From a virus: a DNA stretch of 23,227 bases. Below the pieces are notes generated by a model. That model was not told the origin of the DNA. It did no database searches and worked only from the letters and a program-made list of their open reading frames with translations. The translations under genes and the position numbers were made by a program. The stretch lies in the IMG/VR virus record IMGVR_UViG_3300006175_000032, positions 1-23,227 of that record; one strand, given 5' to 3'. Below are positions 1 through 17,941 of this stretch, one piece after another. Numbering within the stretch: position 1 is the stretch's first letter; every line of letters begins with the position of its first letter.

Positions 1-15
1 GAATTGCTGTTTCAT
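1..15 (-). CDS. Start of a further minus-strand gene, cut by the window edge
   Basis: An ATG at 15-13 overlaps the stop codon of the gene at 12-416 in an ATGA junction, the usual coupling in this block. A GAGG lies four bases upstream on the minus strand. Only five codons (MKQQF) are visible before the window ends, so no function can be given. Confidence 0.4.
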
Positions 16-416
16 GGGGCCTCACACACGGCGCACTCGCCGAAGTTGTTGATCACCAGCTCATCGGTCAGCGTGGACATCCACCGCTTGGCCTTGGCCT
101 CGCCATAGAGGGCCGCGAGCTGGGCGTGCTGGATTGCAGCAGCCTTGCATTCGCCCTCCAGGGTGAACGGGCAGTTGCCGAGCAGGTGCGTCCAGTCATG
201 CCATGCACGGAATGCCCGATACGTGTAGGCGTCGGTGAAAGCCGGGTGGTCCTCGGGCACCCAGGCGTCAGTGACAACCATGCGACCCGTGGTGTGGAAC
301 GTCTTGGCCAGATCGGCGAACGAGTTGGGAGCATCGCTCGCCCAATCGAAGCCACGCGGGAACGTGGTCGCGCAGATGTCCCGCACAGCGGTGTTGAACT
401 CCAGGTCAGCGGTCAT
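12..416 (-). CDS. Hypothetical phage protein, 134 aa
   Basis: I do not recognise a function. The protein has a His/Trp-rich centre (RAFRAWHDWTH) and a C-terminal pair of cysteines (ECAVC) next to the end; these could bind metal, but that is speculation. The ATG at 416-414 is preferred over the in-frame ATG six bases upstream, because AGGAG lies eight bases before it and only two bases before the other. The gene is last but one in a leftward run of small genes. Its start overlaps the end of the 63-aa gene by 11 bases, consistent with translational coupling. Confidence 0.75.
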   Translation of the reverse strand: MTADLEFNTAVRDICATTFPRGFDWASDAPNSFADLAKTFHTTGRMVVTDAWVPEDHPAFTDAYTYRAFRAWHDWTHLLGNCPFTLEGECKAAAIQHAQLAALYGEAKAKRWMSTLTDELVINNFGECAVCEAP

Positions 417-597
417 TGGCATTGCTCCTGAAAGGGCAGGTTGAGCAGTAGGAAGCCCACATCGCGTTGGCGCTCAGCCCGTGGCATGGGCCAGTGCAAG
501 GCGTGCAGACCGGCGCGGGCTCGGGCTTGGCTGGTGCGCCAACCGAGGCACGGACCATGTCGTGATCGCAGTCGATGACGTTGATGAAGCGGACCAT
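406..597 (-). CDS. Small Cys-rich protein, 63 aa, possibly zinc-binding
   Basis: The C-terminal half carries five cysteines in the pattern C-x2-C-x3-C ... C-x2-C (CTPCTGPC, then YCSTCPF), which looks like a small zinc-binding knuckle. The N-terminal 20 residues are not informative. The start is supported by GGGAG six bases upstream. Only one base separates it from the stop of the 40-aa membrane-peptide gene (TGACATG junction), so the two are probably co-translated. No family is recognised; the zinc role is inferred only from the cysteine spacing. Confidence 0.65.
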   Translation of the reverse strand: MVRFINVIDCDHDMVRASVGAPAKPEPAPVCTPCTGPCHGLSANAMWASYCSTCPFRSNANDR

Positions 598-598
598 G

Positions 599-721
599 TC
601 AGTCTCCCTTGAGTGTGTTGCGAATGACGGCAGCCAGGACTCCGATGAGTGCCCTTACCAGCGGTCCAAGTGCCCATATGAGGGCCAGACCCGTGAGGAG
701 CATTCCTACGTTGTCCACCAT
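599..721 (-). CDS. Very small predicted membrane protein, 40 aa
   Basis: This reading frame starts at an ATG overlapping the stop of the 60-aa gene by one base (TGATG) and ends one base before the start of the 63-aa gene, so it exactly fills the gap between them. AAGGA lies nine bases before the ATG. The peptide is almost wholly hydrophobic: residues 5-22 form a likely transmembrane helix, then R23 and a second hydrophobic stretch to about residue 33, ending in a short polar tail (RNTLKGD). A role in lysis, superinfection exclusion or host membrane takeover is possible, but nothing in the sequence decides between them. Confidence 0.65.
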   Translation of the reverse strand: MVDNVGMLLTGLALIWALGPLVRALIGVLAAVIRNTLKGD

Positions 722-903
722 CAGTCGGCGTCCTTGTGGTTGGGGGTGAACGTCACGACGCTGCCGACAACGTGCGGCTTGTCATCCGACAGCACTTGCA
801 TCGGTGGCAGCTTGCCCGTCCTCATGACCTCGTCGGTGAAGCGTTTGAGCACGGCGATGATTGCCTTCGGATCGCGATGCTCGATGGTGATGCGGTGGAT
901 CAT
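721..903 (-). CDS. Hypothetical protein, 60 aa
   Basis: This small mixed alpha/beta-looking protein has no family I recognise (begins MIHRITIEHRDPK, ends FTPNHKDAD). Its ATG overlaps the stop codon of the zinc-peptidase-like gene upstream in an ATGA junction, which decides the start; a longer in-frame extension exists but runs inside the upstream gene. An AAGG about nine bases upstream can serve as ribosome binding site. It overlaps the start of the 40-aa membrane-peptide gene by one base. Confidence 0.65.
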   Translation of the reverse strand: MIHRITIEHRDPKAIIAVLKRFTDEVMRTGKLPPMQVLSDDKPHVVGSVVTFTPNHKDAD

Positions 904-1361
904 GCCGAAGCGCCTTGCAGGAAGGATGTGATCTCGCGCGGCAGCGTCTCGATGGGCACTTCCAAGCCCTTGACGTAGGTCATGATGGCCATGCGGTTGT
1001 CGCGCACCATCTTGGGCGTGACCTTGCCGCCATTGCGCTTGATCGCGTCGAAGCCCCATTTCGTGGCGTAGTATTCCCACTCGACCACTTCGGCCGGTGA
1101 CAGCAAGTCCTTCGACGGCGGCTGCGTGGCGACGTGGCCAGCTTCATGCGCAAGGGTGGCGAGGCCGCGCTGCGTCCTGCCCTTCGGTGCCCAGATCAGG
1201 CGCTCCTCCGGCGCGCTGGTCGACGCAGTAGAAGCGAGCGTTTCCGATATGCCTGGGATCGGTGTGAAGTGTTTCCGCACCCCTGCGTCCCGCTTGACTG
1301 CCGCAGCGACGCGCAGCCGCTCCAGCTCCTCCGACATGACGATGGCTCGTTCCTTACGCAT
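900..1361 (-). CDS. Zinc-metallopeptidase-like phage protein (HEAGH motif), 153 aa
   Basis: Residues 72-76 are HEAGH, the HExxH signature of zincin metallopeptidases, with two His ligands and the catalytic Glu. A Glu-rich helix about 20 residues later (VEWEYYATKW, E94/E96) could give the third zinc ligand, as in gluzincin-type folds such as ImmA/IrrE-like proteins. The N-terminal 30 residues are charged and helical. The ATG at 1361 is chosen because GGAGG lies five bases upstream; two earlier in-frame ATGs lack this. The repeated motif CACGA-N8-ACYA lies 12 bases before the ATG. Whether it cleaves host or phage proteins, or is inactive, cannot be told. Confidence 0.75.
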   Translation of the reverse strand: MRKERAIVMSEELERLRVAAAVKRDAGVRKHFTPIPGISETLASTASTSAPEERLIWAPKGRTQRGLATLAHEAGHVATQPPSKDLLSPAEVVEWEYYATKWGFDAIKRNGGKVTPKMVRDNRMAIMTYVKGLEVPIETLPREITSFLQGASA

Positions 1362-1416
1362 TACGCCCTCCATTGGTTGACCGCTTCGTGTAGCGAATGA
1401 TCGCAAGTAAGTTCAT
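1354..1416 (-). CDS. Possible 20-aa leader peptide
   Basis: A 20-codon frame (MNLLAIIRYTKRSTNGGRNA) starts at an ATG overlapping the stop of the 73-aa gene (TGATG) and has GGAGG five bases upstream, as good as any gene here. It ends eight bases inside the zinc-peptidase-like gene and contains motif copy A. It may be a translated leader that couples the two genes, or a chance frame. No composition signal decides this. Confidence 0.35.
   Translation of the reverse strand: MNLLAIIRYTKRSTNGGRNA
1374..1390 (-). promoter_or_regulatory. Repeated motif CACGA-N8-ACYA, copy A
   Basis: On the minus strand this reads CACGA, eight bases, ACCA. It ends 12 bases before the ATG at 1361, directly before GGAGG. 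It is one of five copies with identical spacing. Confidence 0.5.
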
Positions 1417-1637
1417 CAGTGCCTCCAGGTTGTCCAACGCTCGCGGACGTATGGCTCGCCGTGCTCCAGCATGTCTGCCAGGACGTGTGCCTCGCCCCAG
1501 AATAGGTCGGTGCGTGTGACCCTCATGTGCCCATCAGGATCAATCCAGCGCACGCGGTAGGTGGGGGAACCACCAAAGCCGAAGTCGCGGCCCCCCTCGA
1601 TCTGCACCGTCTCAGGGCGCGCATAGATGCCATCCAT
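1416..1637 (-). CDS. Hypothetical protein, 73 aa
   Basis: No known family is recognised. The core YRVRWIDPDGHMRV followed by a helix ending HVLADMLEHGE resembles the core of the 92-aa protein at 1990-2268 (RLRWLDNLTGETR, then DLAEVLGEY), so the two may be diverged paralogues. The start at 1637 has GGAGG six bases upstream and lies one base after the stop of the 67-aa membrane-protein gene (TGACATG). A longer in-frame extension upstream runs inside that gene and is not used. Confidence 0.7.
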   Translation of the reverse strand: MDGIYARPETVQIEGGRDFGFGGSPTYRVRWIDPDGHMRVTRTDLFWGEAHVLADMLEHGEPYVRERWTTWRH

Positions 1638-1638
1638 G

Positions 1639-1842
1639 TCACGCCTCCTCGGCCACAAACAGCAGGCCCAGCACGAGGATGGCAGCGCCACCAATCAGCA
1701 GCCCTTGGGCCAGCAGTTCCAGCTTGAGGAGCGACATTGCGCCCCCGGCCATCTCCATCAGGTGTGCCACAATGACGTGCTTGTGCGCGCGCTTGTGCTG
1801 AAGGTGCAGACGGCGGACTGCGGTGGTGGCGATGCGCTTCAT
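1639..1842 (-). CDS. Small predicted membrane protein, 67 aa
   Basis: The N-terminal half is strongly basic and His-rich (RRLHLQHKRAHKHV). The C-terminal half carries one clear transmembrane segment at about residues 42-64 (rich in L, A, G, V, I) and ends in EEA. The ATG at 1842 has GGAGG eight bases upstream; a TTG 15 bases earlier would open the same frame but lacks a site. The ATG overlaps the stop of the 28-aa gene (ATGA). Basic charge before the helix suggests the N-terminus stays in the cytoplasm. Holin-like or other membrane roles are possible, but no family is recognised. Confidence 0.65.
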   Translation of the reverse strand: MKRIATTAVRRLHLQHKRAHKHVIVAHLMEMAGGAMSLLKLELLAQGLLIGGAAILVLGLLFVAEEA

Positions 1843-1925
1843 GGTGCTTTCCTCCAAGACATGATGCAGGCGCCCAGCAGATACGTGCTGCTGGCCACGA
1901 GGATGACGAATGTTGCGATGTTCAT
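1839..1925 (-). CDS. Tiny predicted membrane protein, 28 aa
   Basis: The peptide has a hydrophobic stretch from residue 3 to about 22 and a basic end (SWRKAP), typical of a single transmembrane helix. GAGGG lies four bases before the ATG, and motif copy B lies 27 bases before it. The stop overlaps the next gene's ATG. LGAC at residues 17-20 loosely resembles a lipobox, but G in the second position is unusual. A longer in-frame start at 2036 would run into the 92-aa gene and across motif B, so the short form is preferred. Confidence 0.55.
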   Translation of the reverse strand: MNIATFVILVASSTYLLGACIMSWRKAP

Positions 1926-1952
1926 GTGTCCCTCTGCTGGTCGGTCATATAC

Positions 1953-1969
1953 TAGTTGTCTGGTTCGTG
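1953..1969 (-). promoter_or_regulatory. Repeated motif CACGA-N8-ACYA, copy B
   Basis: On the minus strand it reads CACGA, eight bases, ACTA, in the 64-base gap between the 92-aa and 28-aa genes. A 5-bp inverted repeat (TTGTC/GACAA) overlaps it. Confidence 0.55.
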
Positions 1970-1989
1970 GACAAGTCACAAGCCAGTGA

Positions 1990-2268
1990 TCAGGCGTTGC
2001 GGATCGACGCTGCGATACGCGCCAGCGCATCGGCAAGCGGGTTCAGATCAACCTTGCTGGGACGCGGCGGATTAAGCTGGGAGATGCCGGTATACTCGCC
2101 CAGCACTTCAGCCAGATCGGCCGTGTCGACGCTGTCGAGAAAAATGGAGCGCGTCTCGCCTGTGAGATTGTCCAGCCAGCGTAGGCGCACGCCATGCCCC
2201 CACTGGTCGACCTCGATTGACTTGTGGCTGCGCTCGTTATTCTGGAAGCGATCGGTGCGTGTAAACAT
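1990..2268 (-). CDS. Hypothetical protein, 92 aa
   Basis: The protein has a probable beta-hairpin region (RLRWLDNLTGETRSIFL), then a helix (DTADLAEVLGEY), a Pro-containing linker and a C-terminal helix (LADALARIAASIRNA). The core resembles that of the 73-aa protein at 1416-1637. The start at 2268 has GGAAGGA six bases upstream; motif copy C lies 15 bases before the ATG, between this gene and the stop of the upstream gene. Function is not recognised. Confidence 0.75.
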   Translation of the reverse strand: MFTRTDRFQNNERSHKSIEVDQWGHGVRLRWLDNLTGETRSIFLDSVDTADLAEVLGEYTGISQLNPPRPSKVDLNPLADALARIAASIRNA

Positions 2269-2283
2269 TGGTTGTCCTTCCAC

Positions 2284-2300
2284 TGGTTAGTCTGTTCGTG
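2284..2300 (-). promoter_or_regulatory. Repeated motif CACGA-N8-ACYA, copy C
   Basis: On the minus strand it reads CACGA, eight bases, ACCA. It fills the 34-base gap between the stop at 2303 and the ATG at 2268, directly followed by GGAAGGA. Confidence 0.55.
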
Positions 2301-2302
2301 TA

Positions 2303-2980
2303 TCAGCCACGCGCAATAGTCGCGGCTGCCTTGCGTGCAAAGCCATGCGCGGGAAAGCCAACGATAACCTTGCGGTCACGACGCTGGCACAGTTGGCACG
2401 ACGCACAGGTTACATCATCGCGATACGTTGCCGGGCATGTGGCCACCTTGCGCCCTGCCGGTGTCACAACGTCATGTCGCTTGCCGTGTTCCGCGTCGAG
2501 TATCGTCACGACTGGCGCAATCTCCAGGTCTGCCAATTCGTCAGCTTCCGCGAGATTGTCAGCCGATAGGTTGACTGTGAACCCGCGATCGTTGGCATAC
2601 TTGACCAGCTCGCGATTGCCCGCGTCGCTCATGGGCTTGTGCGTGTATGTGAAGCCACGCTTGCCAGTGTTCGCATTGACCAGCGCGAGCATGTCCGCCC
2701 GATCAATCTCGTTGTTTGCACCGGGCAAATCGCCCGCTTGATTGTGGCGCCATAGTTGACCGTCAGGCAGTGCCGCAACCTTGCCAGTGAAGGTTGACCA
2801 ATCGTCGCCCGCCTTGCCTTCCGTCACCTTCCGCCAGTGAATGTTCAATGGTCCGCCCGCAGCGTAGCAGCCGCGCGCTTTAAGCGGGCACGCATCAGGA
2901 CACGTTGCCGCGGTAGTCGTGGAAACGGGAATAGGGCCAACCTTGCGATTGCTACTCTTGACCGTTAGGTGTGTGTTCAT
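2303..2980 (-). CDS. Conserved Cys-rich phage protein, 225 aa
   Basis: The sequence matches a family of uncharacterised phage and plasmid proteins (I believe DUF7227) by its N-terminal cysteine cluster (TCPDACPLKARGCYA, C-x3-C-x6-C), a central GQLWRHNQAGDLPG block, RGFTYTHKP, and a C-terminal cluster C-x9-C-x2-C-x2-C. The clusters suggest binding of zinc or an iron-sulfur cluster; no enzymatic function is known to me. ATG at 2980 is chosen because AGGAG lies about ten bases upstream, and an inverted repeat and motif copy D lie before it. It is the first gene of the leftward block and probably an early gene. Confidence 0.8.
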   Translation of the reverse strand: MNTHLTVKSSNRKVGPIPVSTTTAATCPDACPLKARGCYAAGGPLNIHWRKVTEGKAGDDWSTFTGKVAALPDGQLWRHNQAGDLPGANNEIDRADMLALVNANTGKRGFTYTHKPMSDAGNRELVKYANDRGFTVNLSADNLAEADELADLEIAPVVTILDAEHGKRHDVVTPAGRKVATCPATYRDDVTCASCQLCQRRDRKVIVGFPAHGFARKAAATIARG

Positions 2981-2985
2981 CTGGT

Positions 2986-3021
2986 TGTCGCTCCTGTAGT
3001 CGGTCAACTCGTGGAGCGACA
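2986..3021 (-). promoter_or_regulatory. 9-bp inverted repeat covering a ribosome binding site
   Basis: TGTCGCTCC (2986-2994, plus) and GGAGCGACA (3013-3021) form a perfect 9-bp stem with an 18-base loop. In minus-strand RNA the GGAG of the binding site for the gene at 2980 lies in the 3' arm, so the stem could block translation. The loop contains most of motif copy D. Confidence 0.5.
2997..3013 (-). promoter_or_regulatory. Repeated motif CACGA-N8-ACYA, copy D
   Basis: On the minus strand it reads CACGA, eight bases, ACTA, ending 16 bases before the ATG at 2980. It sits mostly in the loop of the inverted repeat at 2986-3021. Confidence 0.55.
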
Positions 3022-3067
3022 TATCGGCGCAATCCACCGATCAGTCAAATCACGAATGCGTGTTCAC

Positions 3068-3084
3068 TAGTCGGCAGACTCGTG
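3068..3084 (-). promoter_or_regulatory. Repeated motif CACGA-N8-ACYA, copy E
   Basis: On the minus strand it reads CACGA, eight bases, ACTA, and is preceded by an A6 tract (3093-3098 read on minus), as an upstream element of a promoter might be. No gene starts directly after it; the next is at 2980. Confidence 0.55.
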
Positions 3085-3160
3085 GAGTCAGATTTTTTCC
3101 TTTCATCAAACCAGAACAGCCCGTCTCAAAAACTCGACTCGATCACGCAACGGCCTTCAC

Positions 3161-3182
3161 GCCCCTCGTGCGCCCCTCGTGC
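3161..3182 (+). repeat. Tandem 11-base repeat, two copies
   Basis: GCCCCTCGTGC occurs twice in direct succession, followed by a partial third copy (GCCC). It lies in the divergent intergenic region. Function unknown. Confidence 0.6.
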
Positions 3183-3450
3183 GCCCTAGCGCGTGCGTCA
3201 CGTTGCACCGATAGGCTACTCAAGCCGGCCGGCATAGCACCTAACGCATTGATCTAGCTGCCTATTGCTGCCTTGCGTTTGCCGATTGTGTCGCGATTGC
3301 GCCGCGAGCCGTGGCGATAGGTTCCATCTGGCGACGCGAGGGGGAGGGGGATCGACCAATCTCGTTTCAAAATCCCGGTAAAGCCCGCTTATTCTTCTTC
3401 TTGGCTTTCGACGGTGGTGAAGGGACTCCGAAATGGGACCCAGGCCGGCG

Positions 3451-3464
3451 CCCCCGATAGGGGG
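3451..3464. other. Short GC hairpin CCCCC-GATA-GGGGG
   Basis: A perfect 5-bp stem with a four-base loop lies in the leader of the late block. No T-run follows on either strand, so a simple intrinsic terminator is unlikely. Confidence 0.45.
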
Positions 3465-3527
3465 TATGTGGTAACCGGGTAAGGGGACCTCCTAATGCCG
3501 CCTCATGACAGGAGGCAGGCCCCACGC

Positions 3528-3569
3528 AGGGTTCCCTCCAACCCCCTTTCAGTCCCCTTCAGGAACCCT
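3528..3569 (+). promoter_or_regulatory. 8-bp inverted repeat overlapping the fibre gene's binding site
   Basis: AGGGTTCC (3528-3535) and GGAACCCT (3562-3569) form a perfect 8-bp stem with a 26-base loop. The right arm overlaps the AGGA (3561-3564) that serves the ATG at 3574, so folding would hide the binding site. Confidence 0.4.
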
Positions 3570-3573
3570 TCCA

Positions 3574-4629
3574 ATGCCGGTCGAAGCGGCCACCTACATT
3601 CACGACCTGAACCCGGCCGACCCGACGCACACGGACGGCCTGAACCAGAGCGACGCCCACGCCCGCCTGATCAAGACGGTCCTCCAGAGCACCTTCCCGA
3701 ACCTTACTGCCGCCGTCACGGGCACCCCCGACCAGCTCAACCGATCGGCCACCGGCCGCGCGAACGCGGGCACCGTCGAGGTCGAGCCGAATGGGACCCT
3801 CTCGGGCGGTCAAGTGAAGCTGGACCCGGTTTCCGGCTCGGGCGCGGTGCAGCTCCAGAACACCGGCACGGCCGGCAACGACGGCGCCCTGGCGGTGGTC
3901 ATCAACGACCGCACGAACGCCAACCCCGTCACGGCGATGACCGTCTCCAAAGCCGGCGCGGTGAACGCGACAGCCTCGGTCAATGCCCCCGTGATCCTCC
4001 AGGCAGGGAACGCTCTGATCCCCCGAGGGGTCATCGTGGAGTGGTCGGGCGCGGCTAATGCCATTCCAGGCGGCTGGGCGCTCTGCGACGGCACCCAAGG
4101 CACCCCCGACCTCCGCAACGTCTTCATCATCGGCGCCGGCAGCACCTACGCGGTGGGCCAGACGGGTGGGGCGACCGCTGTGGCCACGATCACCGACGCT
4201 CAGGGCAATCACGCCCACACGACGGTGACCGCAGCCTCTCCACCCCTAGCGATGTCGGGCTCCTCGGACGCCCAGGGCTACCACGCACATACTGGGGCAA
4301 CCGCAGGCGCCGCACTCGATATTTCGATGATGCCACCCCACGACCACGGCATTGCTTCGGGTTCGGGCGTGGTGGTCTACAACGGTGGCACCAGGAACAT
4401 CGGCGTCACCGCTGGCTCTACTGAGGGCACGGTTGCATTCGCAGCCCAGGGCAGCGGCGCGGCACACGCGCACGGTATCTACGCCGATGGTCTCCACGCC
4501 CACAACATCGCCGTCAGCAACGTCCCGGCGCATCAGCATGGCATCGTCTACGACGGCAACCACGCGCACAACGTCTCGGTGGCCACGATGCCGCCGTATT
4601 ACGCCCTGTGCAAAATCATGAAGTTGTAA
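3574..4629 (+). CDS. Tail fibre with phage tail-collar domain and HxH repeats, 351 aa
   Basis: This is a host-recognition or tail-tip protein. Residues 150-200 carry a phage tail-collar signature (PRGVIVEWSG, then IPGGWALCDG and TPDLRN). After it come seven His-x-His pairs (NHAHT, YHAHT, PHDHG, AHAHG, LHAHN, AHQHG, NHAHN), the pattern that binds iron ions along the trimer needle of T4 gp37-type fibres. The end, MPPYYALCKIMKL, is typical of collar proteins. The start at 3574 is used because AGGA lies nine bases upstream and the N-terminus (virion-binding part) begins naturally there; the frame is open further upstream to 3505 but that part is Pro-rich and lacks a binding site. It is the first gene of the late block. 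Confidence 0.9.
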   Translation: MPVEAATYIHDLNPADPTHTDGLNQSDAHARLIKTVLQSTFPNLTAAVTGTPDQLNRSATGRANAGTVEVEPNGTLSGGQVKLDPVSGSGAVQLQNTGTAGNDGALAVVINDRTNANPVTAMTVSKAGAVNATASVNAPVILQAGNALIPRGVIVEWSGAANAIPGGWALCDGTQGTPDLRNVFIIGAGSTYAVGQTGGATAVATITDAQGNHAHTTVTAASPPLAMSGSSDAQGYHAHTGATAGAALDISMMPPHDHGIASGSGVVVYNGGTRNIGVTAGSTEGTVAFAAQGSGAAHAHGIYADGLHAHNIAVSNVPAHQHGIVYDGNHAHNVSVATMPPYYALCKIMKL

Positions 4630-4642
4630 CACGGAGCCACAC

Positions 4643-6304
4643 ATGCCCATAGTGCCGATCCGTGGACTCGCTGCGAAGGGCATTCTGCGCGACCCATCAC
4701 CCTACGAACTGGACCTCGATGCGTGGTCGAACGGCGCCAACGTGCGCTTCCACACCAACGTGGCCGAGCGTGCCCCAGCGTTCCGCACCGTGCAGGACAA
4801 CCTCACCGAGGAACCCACGTTTTGTGTCGGCCTGGAGCCGACCGGCGAGGGCTACGACAGCGTGATGATCCACGGTGCGGATGGCCGCATCTGGCAATAC
4901 GGCGCCGGCAGCCTCCTCGAAGTCACCGAGCCAGGGCACTCGAACGTCACGGACCCCCGAGCGGTCACCGCGACGTTTCTCGCAGACGTGCTCTACATCA
5001 ACCGTCCAGATGGACCCCCACGCTACTTCGGGCCGTCGTCTACTGCGTTCGCCCCTTTGCCGAACATGGAGACGACCTGGACGGCTCGCTCACTGCGGGC
5101 ATTCGGCGACTATCTGATCGCCCTGAATGTCGTCAAACCGAGCACCTTCACGGACCCCTACAGTGGCCAAATTCAGACCGGAGGCAACTTCCCGACCCTT
5201 GTGAAGTGGTCGAACCTCACCCTCGCGGGCCAAGTGCCCGACAGTTGGGACCCCGACGACCCCACAAAGTCGACCGGAGAGAACCCCCTGGAGGAGCTGA
5301 CCACGCCGATCGTGGACGGCCTCCCGATGCGGTCGTTGTTCGTCATCTATTCCGAAGACCAAATCTGGGGAATGGAGCAGATCAACGACACGGAAATCTT
5401 CGCGTTCCAGAAGCTGTTCTCCGAAGGCGGCATGATCGCCCCTAACTGCGTCGTTGAGGTCGACGGCGTCCACTACGTGTTCGGCCCGAAGGACATCTAC
5501 CGCCACGACGGCGTGTCCAAGCAGTCGATCATCGACAAGCGCAATAAACAGACGTTCTACCGCTATCTCAGCCGGCAGAAGTCTGAAGTGTGTTTCGTCG
5601 CCTACATGCCGCAATACACGAGCATCGTCTTCGCGTGCAACTCGAACGATCCCAACGCGCACTTCAGCGGCAGCTCGTGCGATCGGTGTAATTGGGCGGC
5701 GGTCTATGACCTCGCGGCGGACACATGGTCGTTCATTGACCTCCCGAACGTCTCTGCGATCACCCAGGCGAACATCGACACCATCTTCACCTACGCTTCG
5801 CTCCCCGACACTGTCACCTATGCGAACGTCGGCGGGTCCTACTACGACCAGGACAACACGTTCGTGAAGAATGTGGTCGCCTGCTCCGGTGCGGTCGGCA
5901 CAACGATCACCGCGTCGCGACTGCTCGCCTACGACTTCATCGACAAAGGCACGCTCACGCTACCGATCGCCACCGATTGCACAGCCCCGGCGTTCGTTGA
6001 GCGAACTGGTGTTGCCCTCGACCAACTCGGGAGCGACTTGCAGACCTACAAGAAGGTCCGCCGAATGTTCCCGCTGATCAACACGTTCCATAACGTGCCC
6101 GTCAGCATCCAAATCGGTGGCTCGGAGACGCCTTCAGGCACCCCAACCTACCTTCAAGCGGTCATGTTCGACCCCATCACGCAATACAAGATCGACGGCG
6201 TGAAAGGTGGTCGGTATCTGGCCGTCCGCTTCACCGTATCCACAACCGACGACTTTGAGGTCGCCGGATATGACCTCGACGTGACCAACGCTGGCCGTCG
6301 GTAA
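4643..6304 (+). CDS. Tail accessory / virion structural protein, 553 aa
   Basis: The N-terminus (RGLAAKGILRDPSPYELDLDAWSNGANVRF) matches a common group of podovirus structural proteins that sit at the head-tail or tail-tube junction, functionally comparable to P22 gp10-like stabilisation proteins. The body is rich in beta-strand patterns (YVFGPKDIYRHDG, AAVYDLAADTWSF) that suggest a beta-propeller-like fold. ACGGAG lies six bases before the ATG. It follows the fibre gene by 13 bases, in the same transcript. The structural role is fairly secure; the exact position in the virion is inferred. Confidence 0.75.
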   Translation: MPIVPIRGLAAKGILRDPSPYELDLDAWSNGANVRFHTNVAERAPAFRTVQDNLTEEPTFCVGLEPTGEGYDSVMIHGADGRIWQYGAGSLLEVTEPGHSNVTDPRAVTATFLADVLYINRPDGPPRYFGPSSTAFAPLPNMETTWTARSLRAFGDYLIALNVVKPSTFTDPYSGQIQTGGNFPTLVKWSNLTLAGQVPDSWDPDDPTKSTGENPLEELTTPIVDGLPMRSLFVIYSEDQIWGMEQINDTEIFAFQKLFSEGGMIAPNCVVEVDGVHYVFGPKDIYRHDGVSKQSIIDKRNKQTFYRYLSRQKSEVCFVAYMPQYTSIVFACNSNDPNAHFSGSSCDRCNWAAVYDLAADTWSFIDLPNVSAITQANIDTIFTYASLPDTVTYANVGGSYYDQDNTFVKNVVACSGAVGTTITASRLLAYDFIDKGTLTLPIATDCTAPAFVERTGVALDQLGSDLQTYKKVRRMFPLINTFHNVPVSIQIGGSETPSGTPTYLQAVMFDPITQYKIDGVKGGRYLAVRFTVSTTDDFEVAGYDLDVTNAGRR

Positions 6305-6334
6305 CACGAACCTGCATCCCATGAGAACACATAC

Positions 6335-7619: not shown

Positions 7620-9998
7620 GTCGGCACCCTTTCGGCTACTCTAGCCAACGCAACGCTATCCTCGGCTGGCTCTGTGCTGGTCGAAGGCACCCTTTCGGCT
7701 ACCCTGGCTGACGCCACGCTCTCCGCAGCCGGTGGCGATCTCGTTGTTGGCACCCTTTCAGCGACCCTGGCCGACGCGACGCTCTCTGCGTCGGGTGGCG
7801 ATATTGTTGTTGGCACGCTCTCGCAGACCACGACCGCGACGCTATCTGCGGCGGGCTGGAGCACGGCGGTCGGTGATCTAAGCCTCCTTTTGGAGGACGC
7901 AAGCCTTTCGGCGGACGGCAACGTGCCATCTTCAGGCACCGTCGATGTCTATCTTGTTGGCGACGGCAACAGCCTTTCATGGACCCCAAGCGAGACCGCT
8001 ACAGCGACAATCGAGTGTTGGGGTGGAGGTCAGGCTGGCAACGGCTTTCCGGGCAATCCTGACGGAGGCAGTGGCTCTACCTACGCGAAGAAGAACAGCT
8101 ACTCCCTGGTCTCGGGCACGCCGATCACCTTCCAGCTCGGCGCTCCTGGCCTAAGTGCCGGCGCAGCCGGTGGTGACACATGGTTCGATTCCTCCTCGAC
8201 GGTTCTGGCACCGGGCGGTGGGTCCACTACGACGGCGATCGGCGACATCATCAACGCTGGCGGCGCTGGCGCACTGAACTCCGCGAGCACGGGCGGCGGC
8301 ACGGTCGCTGGTGGTGGCGCGGGCGGCCCCCACGGCGTGGGTCATGCCGGTGCAGTCTCAGGTGGCGAGGGCGGCGGTGGTGGCGGTGGCAACGGCGGCG
8401 GAACTGATGGGTTCCCCTCTACCAACACTGCCCCTGACGACACTGGTGGCACTGGCGGCGGCGGCTATGGTGGCATTGCGGGCGGCGCAGGCGGCTCTGG
8501 ACAGGCCACACCCCCAACGGACGCCCAAGCGGGTGGCCCCGGTGCGGGTGGTGGTGGTGGTCAAGGCAACATTGCCGGTAAGCCAACCCCAGGCGGCAAC
8601 GGTGGCGACGACTTCGACAACGGTGGTGGCGGTGGTGGTGGTGGTGGCCTCAACTCGACCGGTGACCAGCTAGGCAACGGCGGAAACGGCGGAACTCCTG
8701 GCGGCGGTGGTGGCGCCGGCTACACGAACTACGCCACTGAAGGCGCTGGTGGTTGGTCGGTCATCAAGATCACCTACACCGGCATCGGTAGCAATCAGCA
8801 CCACTATTATGGCAGCTTCCCACTCACCGAGAACCAAGCGAACCTCTCGGTTGTTGCACATGATGCAACCCTTTCGGCTGCTGGGTCTGTTGCTGTTGTT
8901 GGCACCCTGAGTGCCACAACTTCGAGCACACTCAATGCGGCCGGGTGGTCGGCGGCTGTAGGCACACTGAGCCTTACGGTGGCAGACGTTTCGCCATCAA
9001 ACGCCGCCATCACTGGCACGCTGGCTCTCACGACGACCGCGGCACTGTCCTCGGCCGGCACCGTCCTCGTTGAGGGCACCCTCGGTCTAACGATGGCGTC
9101 CGCTACGGCGTCGCCCGGCGCGCTCATCACGGTCAACGACATTCTGAACCAAGTCTCCAATCAATCCTTCCCGGTTCGAGGGACCTTCTTCATTGCACCC
9201 GGCTTCACCTATCAGGATGACAGCGGTGCGGTGGTTCCGTTCCCACCAGGGTCTTTGACCCCGACAACGCCGGAAGAAGATTGGGGCTTCACGCATCCTG
9301 GCTTAGCGGCCGGAACCTACGTGATCCATGTCACTGATCCGGCGACTGGCGCGGAGGGACACACCACGGTCGTCGTGCGCAACGCCGCGAACGTTGCTGG
9401 CACGCTCTCGGCGACCCTTGCGCCGGCTACGTTGTCGGCGGCGGCGGTCACCGGGGCATCCGGGGCACTGAACCTGACGGCAGCCGATGCGACCCTATCG
9501 GCGATCGGCAAAGTTCGTGTCGCTGGCACACTCGCTCAGACGATCGACAACTTCACGCTCGATGCGCAGGGCTCGACTGGCAGCGGCTATCTGGCCCTCA
9601 CGCTGCAAGACTGCACGCTCTCGGCGACCGCTGATGTTCCCGTCATCGGAACGCTGTCATTGACGATGCAGTCGGCTGCGTATGTGCCCCCGATCATTCC
9701 TACCGTGCAGCGTGGTTCGACTACAACGTATCGAAAGGGCGTCCTTCCGATTCTCAAGGGTGGGACTGAGACGTTCGCACAGAAGCAATTCGATGCGTTG
9801 CACGCGACGATCATCAACCTGCAACTGATGACCCCACAAGCGGCCACGAAGCCACCTACCAAACTGCTCGACGGCATGAAGCGGCTCTCGCGCGCTCCGT
9901 GGCGGCCGGTGCTTGGTCAGGACCAAGATGCGTGGGTCTATTGGGATGCGGCTGCGCAGCAGTGGCGCTTCCTATCGGATACCCCAACCAACACTTAG
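6741..9998 (+). CDS. Large glycine-rich repeat tail protein (adhesin-like), 1085 aa
   Basis: The protein is modular. Residues 1-293 form a glycine-rich module opening with a beta-type strand region (YLVGNGTSLTW ... VEVWGGG) and continuing with long GGxGGG runs. Residues 399-693 repeat this module (YLVGDGNSLSW ... IECWGGG). Such glycine-rich segments in phage adhesins can form polyglycine-II helix bundles. Between and after them lie about 14 repeats of roughly 20 residues with consensus GTLSxTLxxATLSAxG, interrupted at about 790-890 by a non-repeat Ig-like stretch. The C-terminal 95 residues form a separate domain. The start is a GTG with AGGGAGA six bases upstream. It probably forms an elongated fibre; the receptor is unknown. 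Confidence 0.8.
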   Translation: MATVTIYLVGNGTSLTWTAPSTVTAKVEVWGGGAAGDESSGNAGNGAYYAAKNSLSLTANTGYSFQLGAPGDRAGTLAGGDTWFSSTGTVLAPGGGSGTTAVGDTTNAGGAGDPNSSNTGGGIGGGGGAGGPHGVGNAGGSAQTGNGGGGGGGNGGGTAGSDNSTDNGGAGGNGFAGTGGSGGVSGGANATNGGAGAGGGGGDGFDASAAPAGNGGDDFDNGGGGGGGGGLDSAGTALGIGGNGGTPGGGGGAGFSGFGNAGSGGWSVIKITWTATVGYTQHLYFGSFPAPNPVGTLSATLANATLSSAGSVLVEGTLSATLADATLSAAGGDLVVGTLSATLADATLSASGGDIVVGTLSQTTTATLSAAGWSTAVGDLSLLLEDASLSADGNVPSSGTVDVYLVGDGNSLSWTPSETATATIECWGGGQAGNGFPGNPDGGSGSTYAKKNSYSLVSGTPITFQLGAPGLSAGAAGGDTWFDSSSTVLAPGGGSTTTAIGDIINAGGAGALNSASTGGGTVAGGGAGGPHGVGHAGAVSGGEGGGGGGGNGGGTDGFPSTNTAPDDTGGTGGGGYGGIAGGAGGSGQATPPTDAQAGGPGAGGGGGQGNIAGKPTPGGNGGDDFDNGGGGGGGGGLNSTGDQLGNGGNGGTPGGGGGAGYTNYATEGAGGWSVIKITYTGIGSNQHHYYGSFPLTENQANLSVVAHDATLSAAGSVAVVGTLSATTSSTLNAAGWSAAVGTLSLTVADVSPSNAAITGTLALTTTAALSSAGTVLVEGTLGLTMASATASPGALITVNDILNQVSNQSFPVRGTFFIAPGFTYQDDSGAVVPFPPGSLTPTTPEEDWGFTHPGLAAGTYVIHVTDPATGAEGHTTVVVRNAANVAGTLSATLAPATLSAAAVTGASGALNLTAADATLSAIGKVRVAGTLAQTIDNFTLDAQGSTGSGYLALTLQDCTLSATADVPVIGTLSLTMQSAAYVPPIIPTVQRGSTTTYRKGVLPILKGGTETFAQKQFDALHATIINLQLMTPQAATKPPTKLLDGMKRLSRAPWRPVLGQDQDAWVYWDAAAQQWRFLSDTPTNT
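7620..7934 (+). repeat. GTLS repeat block 1
   Basis: About five consecutive copies of a roughly 20-residue unit with the pattern GTLSATLADATLSAAG. The first three are nearly identical at DNA and protein level, suggesting recent duplication. Confidence 0.75.
7935..8820 (+). repeat. Glycine-rich module 2
   Basis: Second copy of the module: opening YLVGDG, then WGGG, GLNS, GGAGY, and closing WSVIKITY and YYGSFP. Confidence 0.7.
8833..9690 (+). repeat. GTLS repeat block 2, with an inserted domain
   Basis: About nine or ten more diverged copies of the 20-residue unit lie here, split by a non-repeat stretch at about 9130-9395 that looks like a small beta-sandwich domain (GTFFIAPGFTYQDDSG, GTYVIHVTD). 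Confidence 0.65.
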
Positions 9999-14535: not shown

Positions 14536-16794
14536 ATGGGCACTCTGACACTGACGCTCCCCGATGGGCGGACAGGTAGCCTGCAAGTCGATGACGGGTT
14601 CGCGTCATTGTCAGACGCCCAGAAGGCGGACTTCCTCGACCATGTTCGCGGCCAGCTTGAGCCGCACCAGTCCTTTTCAGCAGACATCAAGGGCGGTCTC
14701 CACGACCTCGGCACCGCGGCGTCAACCGGCGCACAAGCGGTCGGAGTGGGGCTCAACAGTCTCGGCCTGCCGGGTCAGGAGACCGCCAATAACGTCGCCA
14801 GCTCGCTCCAGGGCATCACGCCCAACGAGCCGGCGTCGCCCCAGCCGAGCCCGATCGCGGACCTTCGGGCTGGGCAATACGGACAAGCACTCACTGACAC
14901 CGCGCACCGCGCGCTGCGGGGAGTTGTAGGGTCCGCCCCTATCTTTGCCGGCGAAGCCCTCGGTGGCCCTGTTGGGGCAGCCGCAGGCGCCGGATTGGAA
15001 GCCCTCGGCCCCACGGCAGCAGCCCGCGCGCAGGCCAACAACCGCCCCATGACGGGCGCCGACGTTGCGGCCGCAATTCCCGGTGCCGCCGCTCAGGGCC
15101 TCGCTGGCGCGATGCTCCCAGGCGCCGGCCTCCCCGCCAAGCTCGCCAACCCGCTGCTCCGCGCAGGCGCACGCGCCGGTATGGGCGCAGCCGGTATGGG
15201 CGGCATGGCTCTCACTGGCCAAGTCGCTAACACGCTCGGCACCGACAAGGGCCTCCAGGTCAACCCTGAGGAGATCGGTAACGCGGCCCTGACGGGCGCC
15301 GCAATGGGCGGCACCGCGGGCGGCGCGGAGCTGGCCCGAGAGGGCGTCAAGAACGTCGCTGACAAGGCGATGGCCCGCTCGATGCCGATGCCAGACACGG
15401 AGACTGCCAAGAGCGTCTACCGCGTCACCAACGATATGCAGGCGGTTCAGCAGCAGCGAGCCGCAGCCGGCCAGCCGATCGCGCCCACCGTCGCCGCGAA
15501 CGCGGTGAAGGACATGCGCCTGGACGCCCTGAAGCAGTTCACGGCGGGGCTCCTGGCGGGGCAGCTCATTGACAAGCCCGACTACCTCCAGCTCGGCAAC
15601 ACCATCGACGCTGCGCTGCGCGCCAACAACACGATCAGCAAGAGCCAGCTCGACCACATTGACAGCCTCGGCCTTGAGCCGGCGCAGTCGGCGTTCCTGA
15701 AGGACAACCTCACGGACCTGAACACGGCCTCGTCGCAGTCGTTCAAGAACCGCGAGGTCGGCCCGTTCCAGAAGGTCGGCAACGTGGTCGGTCAGGTGGG
15801 CTCGATCGGCGCGGCCCTCGCGTCCCACAACCCGGCTCTGATCATCGGCGCCGCGCTGGGCCATAGGGCTGAGGGTGCGATCGGTGGTCGCGTCGGTATG
15901 ATGGCTGACCGGCTGATGGGCACGAACACGCCGCCCATCCTCCTCCAGCGGATCAACGCACTGAAGGCCCTCCAGGCGGCCGGGATAGACCCCCACGGCC
16001 TCGGCATGGGCGCAATGCCCGAGCTGCCACAGGCGCCCGGTAGGGTCGGCCCCACGCCCGGCTTCATCCGGCCGATGGGTGGCCCCCAGGTGATGAACCC
16101 ACCGGCTCCCGAGCCCCCGTCAGGCGGTCCCGTGCCGCCGTTCATCCGGCCCCGGCCACAGATGCCCACTCCGCAGCCCGGCCAACCGGACCCTGTGACC
16201 GGCCTCCCGCCCAGCCCTGTGCCACCGAACACGCCTCTGCCGGCGAACTATCCGGTGCCCCCGAAGGCCCCTTCTCTGCCCGCCTTCCAGCCCGATACGG
16301 CCCAGACGGTGGCGTCGACCATTGCGGCCGATAAGATGGCCCAGCCGCCGTCTACGGTGCCTCTGAGCGGCGCGATGGCGTATCTGAAGAACGGCCTGCC
16401 GGGCATGACTCCCGAGCAGATCACCGCCGCCCTCCAGGCCCATGAGACGGCCGGCCGGCTCCCCCAAGGAACCGTCGCGGACCTCCAGACGGCCCCGAAG
16501 GTGCCCCCGGCAATGGGCGCCAAGCTCCAGCAGCTCGCGGCCGGTCTCGCGGCGCAACGCCAATACGCGGTGGATGTGTCGGAGCAGGCGCGTGTCAACG
16601 CTCGCGAGTATCAGAACAACGCGCGGGCCTATGCGGCGATGCACCCTGAGATCGCTGATGCGGTCCTCCAGATCGCCCAGGCGGCCAAGACGCCGGAAGC
16701 GAAGCGCGCACTGGCGCAAGCCTACGTCGCGACCCACCCAGAGGCCCTCGGCAAGTTCCCCGAGTGGCTCCTCAACCACGGACAGCGAAGCTGA
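14536..16794 (+). CDS. Large ejection-type virion protein, 752 aa
   Basis: The first 42 residues look like a small folded part (LTLTLPDGRTGSLQVDDGFASLSDAQKADFL). Several Ala/Gly-rich hydrophobic segments follow (for example about residues 128-158 and 430-445) that could enter a membrane. Residues 516-588 are Pro-rich, and the C-terminal part is helical. This composition, size and position right after the transglycosylase protein fit a third internal virion protein forming part of the DNA-ejection conduit. No catalytic motif is seen. The binding site is weak and 12 bases off, so coupling from the preceding gene is likely. Confidence 0.6.
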   Translation: MGTLTLTLPDGRTGSLQVDDGFASLSDAQKADFLDHVRGQLEPHQSFSADIKGGLHDLGTAASTGAQAVGVGLNSLGLPGQETANNVASSLQGITPNEPASPQPSPIADLRAGQYGQALTDTAHRALRGVVGSAPIFAGEALGGPVGAAAGAGLEALGPTAAARAQANNRPMTGADVAAAIPGAAAQGLAGAMLPGAGLPAKLANPLLRAGARAGMGAAGMGGMALTGQVANTLGTDKGLQVNPEEIGNAALTGAAMGGTAGGAELAREGVKNVADKAMARSMPMPDTETAKSVYRVTNDMQAVQQQRAAAGQPIAPTVAANAVKDMRLDALKQFTAGLLAGQLIDKPDYLQLGNTIDAALRANNTISKSQLDHIDSLGLEPAQSAFLKDNLTDLNTASSQSFKNREVGPFQKVGNVVGQVGSIGAALASHNPALIIGAALGHRAEGAIGGRVGMMADRLMGTNTPPILLQRINALKALQAAGIDPHGLGMGAMPELPQAPGRVGPTPGFIRPMGGPQVMNPPAPEPPSGGPVPPFIRPRPQMPTPQPGQPDPVTGLPPSPVPPNTPLPANYPVPPKAPSLPAFQPDTAQTVASTIAADKMAQPPSTVPLSGAMAYLKNGLPGMTPEQITAALQAHETAGRLPQGTVADLQTAPKVPPAMGAKLQQLAAGLAAQRQYAVDVSEQARVNAREYQNNARAYAAMHPEIADAVLQIAQAAKTPEAKRALAQAYVATHPEALGKFPEWLLNHGQRS

Positions 16795-17493: not shown

Positions 17494-17941
17494 AATCCGG
17501 GGCTACCCCAAGACGCAAGAGACGTTCGATCGCAAGCAAGCGATCATGCGTCAGCAAATCCTCCTCTACAACGCCGAAGGCATCACGGGACGCAATGGTG
17601 TCCCCGACGGCTGGGCCGGAAAGAAAGCATTGATCAACGAGATTAACGCGGCCAGCGAGGCCGACGCGAAGGCGGCTGTGGACGAACTTGAGGAGTTGGG
17701 CAGGTTCGAGCCTGACAACGTCGAGAGCCGAGCGATCTTGGAGGAAGCCTTCAAGGTCGTATATGCAGAGAAGCATACGCCCGAGGAGGCGCCTGTCCCG
17801 CTCTACGCGGTGAAGGACCGCCTCGCGGCCATGAAGATGATTTGGGAAGTAGTCCAGAAGAAGCCGCTGTCTCGCCAGGAAGTTGGCGTGACGAAGGCTG
17901 AGGACTTCCTCGCCGCCCTTGCAGCTAAGCCAGCGGAATGA
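17393..17941 (+). CDS. Probable terminase small subunit, 182 aa
   Basis: The putative role is DNA recognition for packaging. The protein has a basic N-terminus (RPRRRSPLLP), then WHPELVGKIRGYPKTQETFDRKQ, and acidic helical segments ending with KDRLAAMKMIWEVVQKKP, a pattern found in the oligomerisation region of small terminases. The next plus-strand gene is the large terminase, supporting the call. The ATG has AAGGA five bases upstream and lies 101 bases inside the preceding gene. No helix-turn-helix can be shown by eye, so other roles are possible. Confidence 0.45.
   Translation: MSTSKTPRPRRRSPLLPTRRPGVPAVWHPELVGKIRGYPKTQETFDRKQAIMRQQILLYNAEGITGRNGVPDGWAGKKALINEINAASEADAKAAVDELEELGRFEPDNVESRAILEEAFKVVYAEKHTPEEAPVPLYAVKDRLAAMKMIWEVVQKKPLSRQEVGVTKAEDFLAALAAKPAE

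Follow-up and report, generated by a model that had tools for sequence, protein, structure and literature searches.

What reads a short two-block sequence that recurs ahead of the leftward genes of a podovirus? The window analysed here is the whole of a 23,227-base virus record (IMGVR_UViG_3300006175_000032), which is incomplete and possibly a fragment. Its rightward genes, from about position 3,500, encode tail, virion, ejection, terminase, portal and scaffold proteins, and the closest named matches come from UFV-P2 and other LUZ24-like Pseudomonas phages. A leftward cluster of small genes begins at 2,980. The first of them encodes a DUF7227 protein of 225 aa (2303..2980, minus strand) and is followed by a gene for a 92-aa protein without a family (1990..2268, minus), by three overlapping or abutting genes (1839-1925, 1639-1842 and 1416-1637, together 1416..1925, minus), and by a gene for a 153-aa protein (900..1361, minus) with a metallopeptidase-like HEAGH motif recognized by eye but no Pfam family. 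Downstream of the latter, overlapping or abutting genes continue to position 12. The cluster contains four gaps of at least 34 nt, the fourth being the divergent region that separates it from the rightward genes.

Two other records touch on this cluster and its contig. A 9,769-base contig of another record (L043) is the same phage, with one mismatch in 9,146 bases, and reaches 623 bases past the right end of the window, probably into the major capsid gene. The phage contig L102 shares two adjacent leftward-gene homologues with the window, a 37% homologue of the 153-aa HEAGH protein adjoining a homologue of gene 12-422; the contig of L102 also carries an exact 80-bp repeat ahead of two genes (L202:16938-17017 and 17738-17817).

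Results

Five co-directional sites occupy the gaps of the leftward cluster

The initial annotation had reported five minus-strand copies of CACGA-N8-ACYA, and a pattern scan confirmed all five together with a gap of exactly eight bases in each. Copy 1 (3068..3084, minus; 24-bp site TCCACGAGTCTGCCGACTAGTGAA, a near-dyad) is the upstream member of a tandem pair at the head of the cluster, and copy 2 (2997..3013, minus; extended site TCCACGAGTTGACCGACTACAGGA) lies 16 nt before the ATG at 2980. Copy 3 (2284..2300, minus), in a gap of 34 nt, lies 15 nt ahead of the ATG at 2268; copy 4 (1953..1969, minus) lies 27 nt ahead of the ATG at 1925, and copy 5 (1374..1390, minus), in a gap of 54 nt, 12 nt ahead of that at 1361. 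These four distances also agree with those first given. The motif is present in all four gaps of the cluster, with two copies in the divergent one, and is absent from its overlapping or abutting gene junctions, including those inside 1416..1925. All five copies point along leftward transcription.

The full site proved longer than first described, namely 24 bp of the form T-M-CACGA-R-N5-Y-R-ACYA-N4-A, the added invariants being T at the second base ahead of CACGA and A at the fifth base past ACYA. The invariant positions (T.CACGA........AC.A....A) form two blocks that flank a variable 8-bp centre, and identity within the family is 0.65. A partial dyad with one best centre is strong in the head pair (9 and 7 of 12 pairs) and weak in the other three sites. 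As far as searched here, the family appears to be new in sequence.

The recurrence is not a chance effect

The chance expectation for CACGA-N8-ACYA in the window is 0.32, but because the pattern was chosen after looking, we tested the discovery itself. Under a free search, 3.5 kb readily yields five-copy bipartite words: some such word arose in 14 of 40 shuffles of the 3.5-kb region, so a bare count of five is unremarkable. Whole-region word counts, for a motif picked after looking, were accordingly dropped as proof. The picture changed when discovery was confined to the cluster's four intergenic gaps, which total 675 bases. Here the motif takes all four gaps with five copies, which was equalled by none of 600 dinucleotide shuffles and by none of 600 sets of real segments taken from other parts of the window; the best controls reached three gaps with three copies (shuffles) and, once, four gaps with four copies (real segments). 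An earlier run with a shorter fourth gap gave 0 of 1000. Furthermore, in leave-one-out matrix scans of both contig strands, each held-out site ranked straight after the four training sites, with scores of 13.9-22.9 for the held-out sites and 12.3 for the best non-site with the full matrix. The five copies are thus real, and these controls and ranks make the chance recurrence of a loosely defined pattern scarcely credible.

The same matrix found no further copy above background on either strand of the 23-kb contig, the late operon included. Near the late operon its top plus-strand matches are the head pair read in reverse complement, scoring 11 and 10 against 27-30. A sixth exact match to the motif (9845-9861, plus) lies inside a gene, and a near miss 13 nt before an ATG (6305-6321, plus) fell outside the 20 best matrix matches and was taken as chance.

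Upstream of the late (tail) operon the window instead holds a conserved non-coding element, TTTCAAAATCCCGGTAAA (also given as TTTCAAAAAnnCCGnTAAAGC; 3365..3382, plus), which is separate from the five-copy motif. It is kept in all seven relatives examined (L152, L153, L203, L212, L213, L214 and L218) despite low protein identity, and is mostly followed by GTTGTTGTTG-like runs. It may be a late promoter, a packaging site or a processing site. In two of these relatives (L203:8890-8960 and L214:4976-5020) a sequence before the late operon, GACCAAGCTATGTAGGCAATAGAAGATGGTCGGAGGCCTAC, overlaps the promoter-like TGTAGGCAATAGAAG; it could form an H-type pseudoknot, and an Rfam search with it gave no match.

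The copies share no RNA structure and adjoin weak host-type promoter signals

An RNA element had been named as one alternative to a promoter; it would act in the leaders to control translation. Three copies adjoin a ribosome-binding sequence, and copy 2 falls in a strong hairpin (z -5.7) that holds the GGAG of the DUF7227 gene. This hairpin contains a perfect 8-bp stem, GTCGCTCC/GGAGCGAC, around copy 2 (2968-3020, minus), which would hide the ribosome-binding sequence of that gene. However, the other four copies show no better folding than shuffled sequence, no common pair emerges from RNAalifold, and copy 1 lies 87 nt from any annotated start, away from a ribosome-binding site. A common RNA structure is therefore not supported, and we regard an RNA element as very improbable. 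The promoter of the N4 virion RNA polymerase consists of inverted repeats around a short loop (PMC4496689), and the window copies, having no common hairpin, do not belong to that class.

The initial annotation was also right that the motif does not have a sigma70 layout: a strict sigma70 promoter (TTGACA-N16-18-TATAAT) has no match in 1-4600. Nevertheless, when the sigma70-like sites on the minus strand of the first 3.5 kb are ranked, two of the top five, both weak, fall in the leftward gaps. One, TTGTCC-N17-TATATG, has copy 4 as its spacer; the other, TTGACT-N17-GATATG (3020..3048, minus), lies between copies 1 and 2 and may be due to chance. If the latter is used, copy 2 would cover its start point.

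These observations bear on the view that the sites recruit host RNA polymerase to the leftward genes through a phage or host activator or sigma factor. Bipartite, oriented sites directly ahead of gene groups, in a region free of a strict sigma70 promoter (1-4600), are what such a protein might leave. On the other hand, a distance of 12-27 nt to the start codon places the sites at or downstream of the most likely transcription starts, rather than at about -40, the usual activator position. Relatives of this phage show repressors and polymerases, and we found no candidate activator. We consider an activator improbable.

Relatives carry phage polymerases, repressors and repeated signs of their own

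The virion protein encoded at 4643-6301 led us to prophages in Asaia sp. W19 (G030, also L203) and in genomes G077, G091, G317 and G638, and later to G998 and G1017; prophage status was judged from gene content and from position in bacterial genome contigs. These prophages share 35-46% identity with the virion protein, and in the first five the structural module is collinear and the terminases are 47-55% identical. The nearest relatives, at 39-46% identity, are podoviral prophages of Acetobacteraceae and other Alphaproteobacteria. All five first-found prophages contain a T7-type RNA polymerase (PF00940), although the copy in G317 has stops and sits on a short contig of its own; the fetched stretches of G998 and G1017 showed none. 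In G638 an integrase immediately precedes the polymerase gene. In G030 and G317 the small genes leftward of the same divergent region give way to a Cro/CI-type HTH gene, likewise leftward, and to an integrase. No repressor gene is found in the window, and the contig ends short of the repressor position of the relatives.

The T7-type polymerases of G030 (L222:8671-11274) and G077 (L225:5378-7731) are apparently split in two frames (275+588 aa and 207+589 aa), which is reminiscent of N4 RNAPII with its two subunits, or of a shared break. The nearest terminase relatives encode, in L044:4034-9160 (also L045; IMGVR_UViG_3300033571_001461), a structural-module protein of 1708 aa with a C-terminal T7/N4-type RNA polymerase domain (phrog_414, 4e-23; PF00940; HDSFG), probably a virion RNA polymerase. 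Window gene 14536-16794 aligns weakly with the N-terminal part of this protein and is without the polymerase part.

The initial annotation had proposed looking for the motif in related phages, and our scan found no CACGA-N8-ACYA family in any relative. The structural relatives among viral contigs (L044, L045, L152 and L153) reach no further than the divergent region, and viral contigs related through single leftward genes, including relatives of the DUF7227 gene and of gene 12-422, are without the family. Two wider scans yielded no candidate. In viral contigs a pair-pattern scan gave 14 matches, about chance level and mostly protein repeats or iteron-like arrays, and a scan with the single extended pattern gave 20 matches, none with a second convincing site.

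Unbiased repeat searches nonetheless revealed families of other sequence in most prophage relatives. In G638, five copies of TCCACGACTGCCWACCTAW (family also given as TCCACGACTGCC) all lie along transcription, among them copies between integrase and polymerase, just downstream of the polymerase gene and ahead of the late operon. G030 has five copies of TTACGYAATAGAA plus a variant before its late operon, G317 three copies of TGTAGGCAATAGAAG, one of them before the late operon, and G077 three copies of AGGGCAACCATTTACT, one facing the late operon. Five and four copies of GTTCGCAAAAGGGAACT, co-directional and ahead of leftward genes, occur in G091 and G1017, respectively; in G091 one copy also precedes the polymerase operon, and none precedes the late operon. 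G030 carries a second family, the palindromic TAACGTTA(C), distinct from its promoter-like one, which lies before leftward genes, 9-35 nt ahead of their starts; a second copy sits about 80 bp upstream of the first, with a promoter, TTGACA-N17-TAGGGT, between them. No repeated family was found in G998. Repeated signs before leftward genes are thus common in this phage group, and their sequences vary from phage to phage.

Discussion

The initial annotation preferred a promoter family for a phage RNA polymerase or a phage-coded activator, with an operator or an RNA element in second place. Part of this proposal has gained ground, since the copies are co-directional, relatives encode polymerases, and the TCCACGA box recurs in one relative. 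Other features, namely the variable core, the lack of a late-operon copy, a layout like that of repressor operators and the absence of a polymerase gene from the contig, do not fit it well. We tentatively favour, at close to even confidence, the operator reading, in which the five sites are candidate binding sites of one phage DNA-binding regulator, for which a temperate podovirus's immunity repressor is the likeliest candidate. The regulator itself, its binding to the sites and the resulting repression are all inferred.

The chief rival is that the sites are promoters of a single-subunit (T7-type) RNA polymerase of the phage, encoded outside the contig. Transcription starting at or just after ACYA-NN (often GGA) would give leaders of 12-27 nt. 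All five copies face genes, all five first-found prophages have a PF00940 polymerase, and the co-directional family of G091 and G1017 also lies ahead of leftward genes and, in G091, of the polymerase operon. In LUZ100, a T7-like phage that shows temperate features, the polymerase gene is preceded by a phage-specific promoter (PMC10134795). The G638 family, which is placed like polymerase promoters, has TCCACGA and, downstream of it, an AC in common with the window sites. The blocks of the window sites are two nucleotides further apart than those of the G638 family, and copy 1 aligns with it through a 2-nt insert. By a hand estimate, a box of this kind would be shared among the handful of families seen with a chance of 1-2%, which is suggestive. 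The gapped G638 match is, however, not unique in the window, its score of 25 being tied with that of a coding site.

T7-type promoters (T7 TAATACGACTCACTATAG; those of LUZ100, PMC10134795, and of G638) are likewise short, oriented, repeated and placed before genes, but in the window the core is variable, no copy stands before the late operon, and a polymerase was not seen in the incomplete contig. Instead of a nearly invariant core of about 17-20 bp, the window family shows an identity of 0.65 with two conserved blocks, whereas the promoter-like families of the relatives reach 0.80-0.86 (G091, 0.77) with invariant runs of 7-16. T7-type enzymes read promoters at about -14 to -8, and here that part is variable. 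Nor do the copies serve late as well as early genes, with none on the plus strand before the late operon, unlike in G030, G077, G317 and G638. This last argument is weakened by the ambiguous case of G091, with its identity of 0.77 and no late copy. Overall, we think polymerase promoters considerably less probable than not.

For the operator reading, two blocks round a variable centre are the pattern of contact by a two-domain or dimeric protein, and the copies lie in every leftward gap with none above background elsewhere in the 23 kb. The partial dyad, the sigma70-like sites in the gaps and the similar placement of TAACGTTA(C) in G030 point the same way, as does the pairing of Cro/CI-type repressor and integrase that ends the leftward cluster in G030 and G317. 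Against it, the predicted promoters are weak and none passes a stricter consensus scan, the dyad is weak in three of the five sites, the window holds no repressor gene, and TCCACGA is shared with the G638 family that maps like polymerase promoters. The single orientation of all five copies fits promoters, and it fits repressor sites only if these are asymmetric.

Such asymmetric sites are known. Repressor sites of the L5 type lack symmetry, are placed in promoters and in short gaps between genes, run with transcription and are most variable in mid-site (PMC9283540), and the window sites resemble those of cluster A mycobacteriophages (L5, TipsytheTRex; PMC9283540) in asymmetry, gap placement, orientation and variable middle. 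Like them, the window sites are found in a promoter region and in short gaps in one orientation, although the promoter assignments here are weak. The window site, with 24 bp, two blocks and eight variable bases, differs from the L5-type 13-mer with two, and five sites in one cluster compare with more than 20 genome-wide; moreover, no repressor gene was found in the window, and host and phage type are unrelated. Another parallel in arrangement is TAACGTTA(C) of the Asaia sp. W19 prophage, likewise a tandem pair at the leftward head around a host-type promoter, but of other sequence and with a fully palindromic core, its own function being inferred as well.

If the operator reading holds, the tandem pair (3068 and 2997) would act as operators around a host-type promoter that heads the leftward cluster. 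The other three copies might be operators at internal promoters, or stoperator-like road blocks that would stop passing RNA polymerase.

The phage group concerned is little described: podoviruses with LUZ24-like structural genes, whose relatives have integrases, Cro/CI-type repressors and T7-type RNA polymerases. We think it unlikely, yet worth stating, that a stoperator-like repressor marks all transcription-unit junctions of a leftward, lysogeny-side cluster with oriented two-block sites or that a T7-type polymerase tolerates a variable core between two fixed boxes. If the sites are promoters, they would imply a polymerase with an unusual recognition pattern; if they are stoperators, these podoviruses of Alphaproteobacteria would share a control principle known chiefly from mycobacteriophages.
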